Assembly (NCBI GenBank): GCA_020722985.1
Contig: DYJU01000017.1
Location: forward strand, 1 to 34,943
DNA from: Candidatus Methylomirabilis sp.
Lineage (GTDB): Bacteria; Oederibacteriota; PGYV01; DYJU01
Length of the DNA stretch: 34,943 nucleotides
Direction: 5' to 3'
This document shows, one piece after another, positions 14,077-34,943 of the stretch. Each line of letters begins with the position of its first letter. The first letter of the stretch is position 1. Below the pieces are notes generated by a model. The model was not told the DNA's origin, did no database searches, and was given only the letters and a program-made list of their open reading frames with translations. The translations under genes were made by a program, and so were the position numbers.

Positions 14077-15072
14077 ATGAAATTTGCCAACAAAGACATT
14101 TTAAAATTATTCTTTATAATAATACCAGTTTTTATTTATTTTTTTTATAAGATAATAATTATACTAAAAAATTATAAAAATTTTTTTAATAAAAAGATAC
14201 GCGAAAAATTTTTAATACAGATATCAAATAGCCAGGTTATAATAAAATATCTATTATTGTTATTATCTTTTATTTTTTTTACAATAGCACTTGCAAGACC
14301 TCTCGGTGAACCCATAAAATCAGAAATAGAATTTAAAGGTATAGATGTTATGATATTGTTAGATGTTTCTTTAAGTATGGCGGCAATTGATATTCAACCT
14401 GACAGAATGGAAGCAATTAAAAATGGTTTAAAAAAATTTTTAAATTTATTATATGGCGATAGAGTCGGAATAATTACTTTTGCGGGTATTGATTTTATTC
14501 AGTGCCCTTTAACAACTGATTATGACGCAGTTGATATGATAATAGATGGTCTTTATCCTGGAATGCTGGCAAAAGATGGAACATATCTTGGTAATGCTAT
14601 AAAATCAGCGATTGAAAGATTGATGGTGGATGCTGGAAAATCAAAAATTATGGTTTTAATAACAGATGGTGAAAATACAGGTGGTTTATCCCCAATAGAT
14701 GCTGTTAAATTTGCAAAAGAAAAAGAAATAAGAGTTTATACGATAGGTGTTGGTACAAAAGAAGGCGGAAAAATTCCAGAAGGGCAGGATTTTTTTGGAA
14801 GAGTTTATTATAAAACCTATCAGGGGCAGGTCGTCATATCAAAGTTAGATGATACTGAACTAAAAAAAATAGCAGAAATAACTGGCGCAAAATATTTCAG
14901 ATTAACTGATGCGGGTGCCTTTAACTCTATTGTTAAAGATATTAAAAATATGGAAGAAAATAAAATAAAAGAAAAGAAAACAATAAAATATAAGGAAAAT
15001 TATGAAAAGTATTTATTTGCAGGATTATTTTTATTTTTACTTTCACAGATAATACCTGTAAAGAAATTGTAA
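14077..15072 (+). CDS. VWA-domain membrane protein (BatA/BatB-like paralogue)
   Basis: VMILLDVSLSMAAIDIQPDRMEAIK MIDAS-like motif; tandem paralogue of the preceding gene. Stop codon TAA lies in the end of the adjacent repeat element. Confidence 0.87.
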   Translation: MKFANKDILKLFFIIIPVFIYFFYKIIIILKNYKNFFNKKIREKFLIQISNSQVIIKYLLLLLSFIFFTIALARPLGEPIKSEIEFKGIDVMILLDVSLSMAAIDIQPDRMEAIKNGLKKFLNLLYGDRVGIITFAGIDFIQCPLTTDYDAVDMIIDGLYPGMLAKDGTYLGNAIKSAIERLMVDAGKSKIMVLITDGENTGGLSPIDAVKFAKEKEIRVYTIGVGTKEGGKIPEGQDFFGRVYYKTYQGQVVISKLDDTELKKIAEITGAKYFRLTDAGAFNSIVKDIKNMEENKIKEKKTIKYKENYEKYLFAGLFLFLLSQIIPVKKL

Positions 15073-15390
15073 CAGTTTAGCCACTGGTAGAATAAAATTA
15101 GCCAATAAATAAATTTTTGTTCTGTCATTTTAAAGTCAGGCGAATAATAACTTCTGACTTCTATTCCCTCGTTTAATGAACCTGACAAAGCAATCTTGCT
15201 TTTATTACCGCTTGCCTTCTTATCTTGTCTGCCTTCCGCTTTTCAACTGTTAGATTGCTTCGTTCGGCTCATATTACCCTTATTTCCCATTTTACATTTC
15301 TCTTTCGGCTTACTAAGAATGACAGTGTTAGGTTTTTCCTTACTAGTAGCAAAACTTTTACAAGTTTACTTCTGGTGGCTGAACTATTAC
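15069..15390 (-). repeat. MITE-like interspersed repeat, copy 1 (~322 bp)
   Basis: Ends GTAACAGTTTAGCCACTGG (15069-15087) and CTGGTGGCTGAACTATTAC (15372-15390) form an imperfect 19-bp TIR. Reverse complement aligns by eye with copy 2, including GCCGAAAGAGAA, GAAGCAATCT, GGTAATAAAA, ATTGCTTT and TTGACTTTAAAATGA/CTGACTTTAAAATGA blocks. Confidence 0.75.
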
Positions 15391-15393
15391 AAT

Positions 15394-16167
15394 TTATTTA
15401 AAAATCAACCATATTCCTATAATAATCTGCAAAAGAGAAAGTAAAATATTTAAAAAATATCTATCTGCTTTTATTGCTGTTTTAGAACCTATAAGTGCCC
15501 CTGAAAATACTGCAATTGAAAGTAGCATAATTAATTTCCAGTTAATATTTCCTATCAATGAATGCCCTAAAAGACCGGTTAAAGAAGTTGAAACAATCAT
15601 AGCAGAAGAAGTTGCTGCGGCTATTTTTATTGGCGTTTTAAAAATCAGAGTCATAAGAGGAACTTTTGCAAAACCGCCGCCAATGCCTATTATACTTGAT
15701 ATTACTCCTGCAAAAAAAGAAATAGGAATTCCAAGCCAGAGATTAATTGAATAATATCCATCTTTATGTTTTTTATGAATTATACCAAAAGATTTTTTGG
15801 GCTTTTTTGTATTTAATTTTTGTGGAAAGAAATGCAAAAAAGCAGAAATAAATAGAATAATAGCGAACAATATTTCAAGAAATCTAACTGGGAAAATTTT
15901 TGAATTATAGCTGCCTAAAAAGGCGCCAAGTATGGTAAAAGGTTCTATTAAAGAAAAAATATGCCAGTCAATCAGTTTTTCTTTAAAATAAATAAATGCT
16001 GCTGTAAAATTCATTATAGCCATAATTGCAAGTGATGTTGAAACTGCCTGATGAAAATCAATACCTGCACTTATTAAAACAGGAACATATAGTATTCCGC
16101 CACCCAACCCTAACATAGAAAAAATGAATGCAATACAGAAAAAAATTAAAATAAGTAAAATATTCAA
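15394..16167 (-). CDS. TauE/SafE family sulfite exporter/permease
   Basis: FSMLGLGGGILYVPVLISAGIDFHQAVSTSLAI and SSIIGIGGGFAKVPLM repeats characteristic of TauE/SafE. Confidence 0.88.
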   Translation of the reverse strand: MNILLILIFFCIAFIFSMLGLGGGILYVPVLISAGIDFHQAVSTSLAIMAIMNFTAAFIYFKEKLIDWHIFSLIEPFTILGAFLGSYNSKIFPVRFLEILFAIILFISAFLHFFPQKLNTKKPKKSFGIIHKKHKDGYYSINLWLGIPISFFAGVISSIIGIGGGFAKVPLMTLIFKTPIKIAAATSSAMIVSTSLTGLLGHSLIGNINWKLIMLLSIAVFSGALIGSKTAIKADRYFLNILLSLLQIIIGIWLIFK

Positions 16168-17845: not shown

Positions 17846-18523
17846 ATGGATAAACAGGATAAAAAAGCAAGAGGCTCTTTTGTATTGTTTTTTATTCTTA
17901 TCGGCTTTATATTGGGTGCTGGTATAGGAATTATATATTATGATAAATTATTTGAAGTTTATCTTACAACATTAAAGAGTTATGTTATGGAAGATTATAA
18001 AAGGACAGAAGCATATGCAAATAAGGTTGTTGATCAGGCAGTAAAGTTAAGAAAAATGCTTGCCGATAATAAAATAAAATATGATAATTTGATTTTTGAA
18101 AAAATTTTTGATACACGTAGCAGATTATTAGGCTCTGATAATATGCAGGAAAAGGCAGAGTATATAAATAAATATGAAGAGGACTTCAATAAAATACTTG
18201 AATTTTATAATTTAAGGATGGATTTGAGGAATAAAAGGTTCGGATATATTGAGTGGGGAATGGAAACAGGAAAATATATAAAAGAGTATGTATATAATAA
18301 AGATAGATATCGCGATTCTTCAAAAGAATATAATGAAAAGTTAAAGAAATTTCCTTTGATTTTAATTACAAAAAGAAAAAATTTTAATTCTTATCCTGAA
18401 TTAAGTGCAAGTATAATAATTGAACCAAGATTAAGAACAGAAAAATATGTAAAAGATGATCTTAAAGAATACAAAGATGAGCAGGATAAACCAGTAGAGG
18501 CTGTTGCAGAAGAAAATGAATAA
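17846..18523 (+). CDS. Hypothetical membrane-anchored protein
   Basis: Single N-terminal TM (SFVLFFILIGFILGAGIGIIYY), Lys/Glu-rich soluble domain; RBS AAGGAG upstream. 3' end overlaps rnpB. Confidence 0.65.
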   Translation: MDKQDKKARGSFVLFFILIGFILGAGIGIIYYDKLFEVYLTTLKSYVMEDYKRTEAYANKVVDQAVKLRKMLADNKIKYDNLIFEKIFDTRSRLLGSDNMQEKAEYINKYEEDFNKILEFYNLRMDLRNKRFGYIEWGMETGKYIKEYVYNKDRYRDSSKEYNEKLKKFPLILITKRKNFNSYPELSASIIIEPRLRTEKYVKDDLKEYKDEQDKPVEAVAEENE

Positions 18524-18904
18524 TTTTTTTCTGAGGAAAGTCCGGACTCCATGAAGCAAAGTCCCTGTTGGTAAAACAGGAGTTGTATTTTAACAAAGAT
18601 ACAACATGGAAAGTACCACAGAAAACAGGTAGCCATGTTAAATGTCTTTTTTTGCATTTTAACAGGGTGATAGTGAAAAGGTGAGGTAAGAGCTCACCGC
18701 ATAAAATCGTAAGGTTTTATGGCACGGCAAACCCGGCTTGGAGCAATGCCAAATAGAGGGCAAATTCTGTAAAGTAAAATTTATAGATAGGTTCGCTTCG
18801 CACCTTCTTGCTCAGGGTCGGCAGCATAGATTAATGACAGCCATTTAAAAAGTTGTAAAACTTTTTAAATACAGAATCCGGCTTATTTACGGTTTATCCT
18901 GCTT
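18479..18904 (+). ncRNA. rnpB: RNase P RNA (bacterial type A-like)
   Basis: GAGGAAAGTCCGGACTCC, ACAGAAAAC, AGGGTGATAGTGAAAAGGTGAGGTAAGAGCTCACCGC, GGCAAACCCGGCTTGGAGCAATGCCAAATAG, ACAGAATCCGGCTTA. P1 GCAGGATAAACC (18481-18492) pairs perfectly with GGTTTATCCTGC (18891-18902). Confidence 0.93.
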
Positions 18905-21342: not shown

Positions 21343-21563
21343 TAAAAAAGTTTTTTTAAACTTCTAATTTAATAATAATAGTAAAACTAAAAATTTATAA
21401 TAAAAATGTTGATATTTTATTGTTTCAATAAAAAATACCTTTAAAATAAAGGGTTTTTTAAAGTTGACAATGTTGATAAATTGTGGAAAACAATTGATAA
21501 AAACATCCGAATTACTTGTAAATTTATGCATTTTCACATTATTAACATTATTAAGATTTTTTT

Positions 21564-21880
21564 GTAATAGTTCAGCCACCAGAATTAACTTGTAGAAGTT
21601 CATATAAGTATAGGACACATGGAGGTGTCATTTTTATAAAGCCGAAAGAGAATGGCGGAATGGGGAAAAAGGACAAATAATATGTGGGTTAACGAAGCAA
21701 TCTTGTAGTTGAAAGCCAGAAGAGGATAATGGAAGAAGGCATCAGGTAATAAAAATAAAATTGCTTTTTCAGGATCAATAAGCAAGATAATAGAAGAAAA
21801 AGGGATTTGGCGCTTGACTTTAAAATGATAAAGTGAAAAAATTATAGATCAATTTTATGTTCCAGTAGTTAAACCATTAC
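21564..21880 (+). repeat. MITE-like interspersed repeat, copy 2 (~317 bp)
   Basis: GTAATAGTTCAGCCACCAG (21564-21582) and CCAGTAGTTAAACCATTAC (21862-21880) form an imperfect TIR; internal blocks shared with the reverse complement of 15069-15390. Confidence 0.75.
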
Positions 21881-21935
21881 TTTTTTGTTTTATGATGTAT
21901 AAATTCTTAAAATAAGTAAACAATTCTAAAATAAA

Positions 21936-34878: not shown

Positions 34879-34943
34879 TTAATAGTTCAGCCACAAGGAG
34901 TAATTAAAAAGTTCGTATATTAAAAAAAACACCTGGCGATGTC
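34879..34943 (+). repeat. MITE-like interspersed repeat, copy 3, truncated by window end
   Basis: TTAATAGTTCAGCCACAAGGAGTAA...AAGTTCGTATA...GGCGATGTC aligns with the left end of copy 2 (GTAATAGTTCAGCCACCAGAATTAA...AAGTTCATATA...GGAGGTGTC). Confidence 0.6.

Follow-up and report, generated by a model that had tools for sequence, protein, structure and literature searches.

A new, abundant and mosaic MITE family with 8-bp target duplications in Candidatus Methylomirabilis sp.

Introduction

The 34,943-bp contig DYJU01000017.1 (assembly GCA_020722985.1, Candidatus Methylomirabilis sp.), here called the window, contains two similar intergenic blocks of about 320 bp that end in inverted repeats. 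A reading of the sequence alone had proposed that they represent either a MITE or a structured-RNA repeat. This raises the question of whether the blocks are copies of a mobile DNA element and, if so, how far it has spread, what made its copies differ, and which enzyme would have moved it. In the definition used here, a prokaryotic MITE is shorter than ~500 bp, has terminal inverted repeats (TIRs) of 4-30 bp and flanking direct repeats from target duplication, carries no internal transposase, is dispersed over AT-rich intergenic sites and has an autonomous relative able to act in trans (PMC10969869).

Results and discussion

Copies and structure of the element

Copy 1 and the reverse complement of copy 2 (Table 1) aligned end to end (317 vs 322 bp, 72% identity, E = 1.2e-34), as the sequence-only reading had described. 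Copy 1 is strongly diverged, differing from the family consensus by 26%. The window's own genome, designated G000, is a MAG of 2.13 Mb in 122 contigs that is 84% complete. In this genome, copy 1 alone gave 49 blastn matches, copy 2 among them, and a TIR pattern of 16 bases with at most 2 mismatches was matched 302 times, as compared with 2 matches for the reversed control. The 302 end matches correspond to ~150 elements at a density of one in ~14 kb, a copy number that is based on pattern counts and on targeted stretches of G000. When 306 kb of stretches chosen around TIRs were searched with a profile made from 25 aligned copies, 145 matches were obtained, 72 of them essentially full length.

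The full-length copies have a median length of 319 bp (range 291-358), under the ~500-bp limit for MITEs, and TIRs of ~19 bp with GTAATAGTTYAGCCACYRG at both ends, inside the 4-30 bp range. Their termini are sharp, as nearly all start with GTAATAG and end with TATTAC or a close variant. The left end of the family is GTAATAGTTCAGCCACCAG and the right end, given as the reverse complement, is GTAATAGTTTAGCCACTGG. With sharp termini and the excess of TIR matches over the control, the earlier description of both blocks as TIR-ended is upheld. The interior of the element holds two more main inverted pairs, TGTCATT..AATGACA and GAAGCAATCT..AGATTGCTTT.

Table 1. Positions of the element copies and their parts in the window.
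Feature	Position	Strand	Description
Copy 1	21564..21880	+	317 bp; between Mem_trans permease gene and IMP dehydrogenase gene (guaB)
Copy 2	15069..15390	-	322 bp; between two convergent genes, VWA/BatB-like and TauE/SafE
Third copy, left part (profile positions 2-70)	34880..34943	+	cut by contig end
Left TIR of copy 1	21564..21582	+	GTAATAGTTCAGCCACCAG
Right TIR of copy 1	21862..21880	-	plus strand ..CAGTAGTTAAACCATTAC
Left TIR of copy 2	15372..15390	-	GTAATAGTTCAGCCACCAG
Right TIR of copy 2	15069..15087	+	GTAACAGTTTAGCCACTGG
Target-site flank of copy 1	21556..21563	+	ATTTTTTT vs TTTTTTGT (21881-21888); degenerate 8-bp duplication, 2 mismatches
Target-site flank of copy 2	15061..15068	+	AAGAAATT vs AATTTATT (15391-15398); degenerate 8-bp duplication, 3 mismatches
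Nested inverted-repeat core of copy 1	21626..21829	+	TGTCATT (21626-21632) / AATGAT (21824-21829)
Inner pair within copy 1 core	21693..21703 / 21757..21773		CGAAGCAATCT / AAAATTGCTTTTTCAGG

An intergenic location was found for 53 of the 54 copies tested. Only 1 of the 54 overlaps an ORF of at least 100 aa by more than 60 bp, and there by 61 bp, which agrees with the earlier statement that no ORF spans the blocks. No gene-sized ORF spanning the element was found, nor coding capacity for a transposase in either ordinary or enlarged copies. At copy 2, the VWA gene upstream (ORF 14077-15072) takes its stop codon from the terminal GTAA of the element (15069-15072).

Target duplications and empty sites

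Perfect 8-bp duplications flank 24 of the 56 full-length copies, and a further 6 have an 8-bp duplication with one mismatch, whereas random re-pairing of the flanks gives 0.4 and 0.7 copies, respectively. The duplicated targets are AT-rich. No duplication of 7 bp or of 9 to 14 bp was present in any of the 56 copies. The 4-nt flanking duplications suggested earlier for the two window copies were not supported, since only 3 of the 56 copies match at 4 bp and the rule of the family is 8 bp. The duplications are bimodal, with the 24 perfect and 6 one-mismatch cases set against 24 copies that have at least 3 mismatches and random-looking flanks. Nearly half of the full-length copies lack a recognisable duplication, and rearrangement, recombination or misassembly is needed to explain these cases.

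The genes of a congener (G001) are close to those of G000, with neighbours of the element mostly at 70-95% protein identity. No element was found in G001 using the end pattern and blastn, or using the profile over 660 kb. At the site of copy 2, the flanking genes are ~7 bp apart in G001 as compared with 322 in the window, and at the site of copy 1 both flanks can be aligned to the DNA between the permease gene and guaB in G001, where the element is lacking. Hence, both window copies are absent from their orthologous sites. A further copy, at C39:25701, is flanked by the duplicated target ATTTAATC, of which G001 has a single version, TTTTAATC. The empty-site claims are limited to these three copies, as other candidate sites aligned poorly. 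Movement of the element is established by the duplications together with the empty sites, against which the insertions are precise. The proposal of a MITE is thus supported by the many genomic copies, the uniform 8-bp duplication and the empty orthologous sites. In its length, TIRs, flanking duplications, lack of an internal transposase and dispersal in AT-rich intergenic DNA, the element agrees with the definition given above (PMC10969869), and it is a new, abundant MITE family of an already known kind.

The nested inverted repeats also fold on paper, and the minus strand folds better than shuffled sequences (z = -2.66), which would favour a conserved structured RNA, either cis-regulatory or trans-acting, repeated at many loci. 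However, the plus strand folds no better than shuffles (z = -0.79), and the consensus fold of 26 copies (~22% divergence) has nested helices without covariation, the covariation term being 0.1 kcal/mol and compensatory change being seen in 2 of 38 pairs. The inverted repeats are therefore best read as DNA features. In addition, no Rfam match at the element reached the gathering threshold, a sub-threshold snoRNA-like match touching copy 2, and the 8-bp duplications and empty sites are those of a mobile DNA element. A structured RNA is thus very improbable, and this branch of the sequence-only reading is largely refuted. The window encodes a bacterial class A RNase P RNA at 18487-18900 (200.6 bits).

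Distribution of the family

None of the 44 other phylum members compared has the end pattern. In a scan of GTDB contigs, one chance-like match aside, it turned up only in three contigs of a MAG labelled Acetofilamentum sp. isolate SulCav, which carry several copies of the element; the scan may omit other contigs of the SulCav MAG. One gene on these contigs is 87% identical to G001 and is missing from G000. The SulCav MAG therefore belongs to the same genus or is nearer still, despite its label. TIR matches in Synechococcus lacustris (L131) and in a viral contig (L132) were assigned to chance, as no full element surrounds them, and plasmids and phages gave no element match.

A different high-copy repeat, unrelated to the element and ~200-400 bp long, is present in the congener; it contains the hairpins CCGTAAAAACGCATTTTCTAATGCGTTTTTACGG and CCTGAAAA..TTTTCAGG and lies, for example, at L144:16313-16552, L154:19200-19432 and L143:4036-4277.

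Divergence and mosaic structure of the copies

The copies differ from one another by ~22% on average. Those with perfect duplications (24 copies) have a mean mutual identity of 80% and differ from the consensus by 14%, and those without duplications show 78% and 15%, respectively. As judged by the ratio of 24 perfect to 6 one-mismatch duplications, decay in place amounts to only a few percent. Divergence that accumulated in place should have left mainly intermediate duplications, but the pattern seen is bimodal. Divergence alone is not unprecedented, given that QMITE1 of Coxiella burnetii shows comparable divergence with conserved ends; about half of its copies share <75% identity with the full-length form, and the ends and duplications are better conserved (PMC10969869).

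Linkage between 46 two-state sites falls from an r2 of 0.23 at 1-5 bp to ~0.03 beyond 40 bp, and the correlation of linkage with distance (-0.198) was as low in 0 of 2000 permutations. All four combinations are present in nearly all pairs of variable sites, and the best-matching partner shifts along each copy, with 5.1 partners over 7 windows. The simplest reading of this mosaicism would be exchange of tracts among copies, some of which would also have swapped flanks, and gene conversion may be its cause. Diversity-generating mutation was also considered and rejected, as the substitution spectrum is ordinary with no excess at A. Nothing directly relevant was found in the literature on mosaic MITEs.

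Chimeric short-read assembly might instead have produced the mosaic pattern as well as the lack of duplications in some copies. The repeat did break the assembly, many contigs of G000 ending inside a copy in the profile search, and the conserved interior blocks could permit misjoins. However, misjoining is opposed by the ~22% difference between copies, by the 24 copies whose ends are tied by a matching duplication and which were therefore joined correctly at both ends, and by linkage that is low already at 6-20 bp. Chimeras could contribute to the mosaic diversity but are unlikely to account for it.

Search for a transposase

The transposase with matching TIRs that had been suggested to reside elsewhere was not found, and neither was an autonomous copy, in genome-wide searches with PF03050 and PF01609 and in the part of the TIR locations that was read. 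For the IS66 transposase family (PF03050), there was no match in G000 or the congener G001, and weak partial matches were seen in two more distant genomes. As IS elements, being repeated, often drop out of MAGs, the absence of a transposase carries little weight.

The search of G000 for DDE_Tnp_1 identified an intact IS1380 transposase (C24:6189-6887) beside an element copy and a truncated IS1634/IS4-like transposase (C63:58712-58852) near a contig end, neither of which is bounded by the element ends. The two transposase regions have an identical stretch of 52 bp in common. The IS1380 at C24 lacks a matching end on the side away from the copy, and elements of this family make duplications shorter than 8 bp. 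Hence, this IS1380 was not taken as the partner of the element.

Enlarged TIR-to-TIR copies (398-643 bp) were rejected as candidate autonomous elements, as what they contain is other palindromic repeats or parts of the element in duplicate. No transposase was recognised in them, their short ORFs lying outside the family-library comparison. Enlarged or composite copies in G000 are located at C7:1177-1756, C55:7262-7843, C40:1-448, C24:4997-5617, C78:510-907, C7:25114-25756 and C94:17539-17973, and several carry other palindromic repeats (GTAGGGGCAATTCATGAATTGCCCCTAC, CCCTCTCCCC..GGGGAGAGGG types and GACGCCCATCCCTGGGCGTC).

IS66-family insertion sequences and their derivatives have GTAA ends and produce an 8-bp target duplication. 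The element shares both traits, GTAA being the start of nearly all full-length copies, and no IS66 transposase gene accompanies it in G000 or the congener. A narrower form of the preferred explanation assigns the mobilisation of elements with GTAATAGTTYAGCCAC ends to an IS66-family transposase in particular, one that was lost or else was missed in assembly or binning. The comparison with IS66 covers these two traits and, in the ends, GTAA only. In favour of this narrower form, short-read MAGs often lack multi-copy IS elements, and G000 is 84% complete; against it stands the lack of any PF03050 match in either genome. We regard specific mobilisation by an IS66-family enzyme as a tentative proposal.

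Relatives of the inner core

The inner core of the element has relatives across the phylum. With at most 1 mismatch, the core motif TGTCATTGCGAGGA has 41 occurrences in G000, abounds in several relatives, and is matched in 28 of the 45 genomes of the phylum, reversed controls being near zero. In the relatives, the core forms palindromes of ~95-150 bp with GACGAAGCAA inside, and the core of copy 1 is a diverged form of this phylum-wide TGTCATTGCGAGGA..GACGAAGCAATCT palindrome. Four short core motifs lie in the same order in the interior of the G000 element, with many substitutions; at loose thresholds they were detected in 40, 49, 48 and 20 of the 56 copies, and the similarity is confined to blocks of 13-17 bp.

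In genome G014, the same core palindrome lies inside a separate MITE-like element of 159-164 bp with CTAGTGTAGTG ends (L184, L186-L189, L192). In G026, a core pair encloses a small GIY-YIG nuclease gene (L191:301-708), and core pairs are located on both sides of a small GIY-YIG gene in G030 (L219), G036 (L216) and G039 (L214). The association is partial, being absent from most of the 30 loci examined. The arrangement of GIY-YIG genes enclosed or flanked by TGTCATTGCGAGGA palindromes in these relatives resembles that of REP-RAYT systems. The G000 element differs from REP/RAYT and from the TGTCATTGCGAGGA palindromes in being larger and in having ends of its own that are flanked by 8-bp duplications, and G000 yielded no small GIY-YIG gene; the size of the element and its duplications likewise set it apart from REPs. 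No paper was found in the literature with the core sequence or on palindromic repeats linked to GIY-YIG genes.

Given the presence of the core motif in so many genomes of the phylum and its position around small GIY-YIG genes in several of them, the mobile unit could be the inner TGTCATTGCGAGGA palindrome, with a GIY-YIG nuclease as its enzyme and the outer ends as passengers. However, the 8-bp duplications in G000 abut the GTAATAG ends and not the core, and the sole GIY-YIG match in this genome is a frame of 595 aa, the size of UvrC. For this family, the core as the unit of movement is contradicted by where the duplications lie and is improbable in the extreme. The shared core may, at a speculative level, point to a modular class in which a core linked elsewhere to small GIY-YIG genes would have been taken up time and again, in different lineages, by MITEs whose ends are unrelated, and in which continual tract exchange among the ~150 G000 copies would make fresh copies ~20% different from one another; this combination is possible but doubtful.

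Comparison with known MITEs

Compared by description, the element resembles QMITE1 and QMITE2 of C. burnetii, MITEs that are also non-coding, measure a few hundred bp and are present in tens of copies. It differs from them in number, with ~150 copies as against 45 and 78, respectively (PMC10969869). A similar likeness, also by description, is seen to the Chunjie MITE of Geobacter uraniireducens (178-235 bp), which has conserved ends and duplications, an intergenic location and many partial copies. Chunjie has fewer copies, and a phylum-wide core is not described for it in the available part of the same source (PMC10969869).

Conclusions

The best explanation as a whole, to which we assign a probability of roughly 0.93, is a MITE that spread to ~150 sites and was made mosaic by tract exchange. 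The element would have spread to AT-rich, mostly intergenic sites in the G000 lineage, probably at least in part after the split from the congener. It may have been mobilised in trans by a DDE enzyme encoded elsewhere, with a possible IS66-like kinship. During or after the spread, exchange of short tracts between copies, by ectopic recombination or gene conversion, would have produced the mosaic family.

These data add a well-documented, very abundant MITE family, with its movement established, in a thinly sampled phylum. How small palindromes travel between lineages becomes a question open to testing, given that elements with different ends contain the same core. If the mosaic pattern holds true in long reads, the family would provide a system for measuring recombination among dispersed bacterial repeats.
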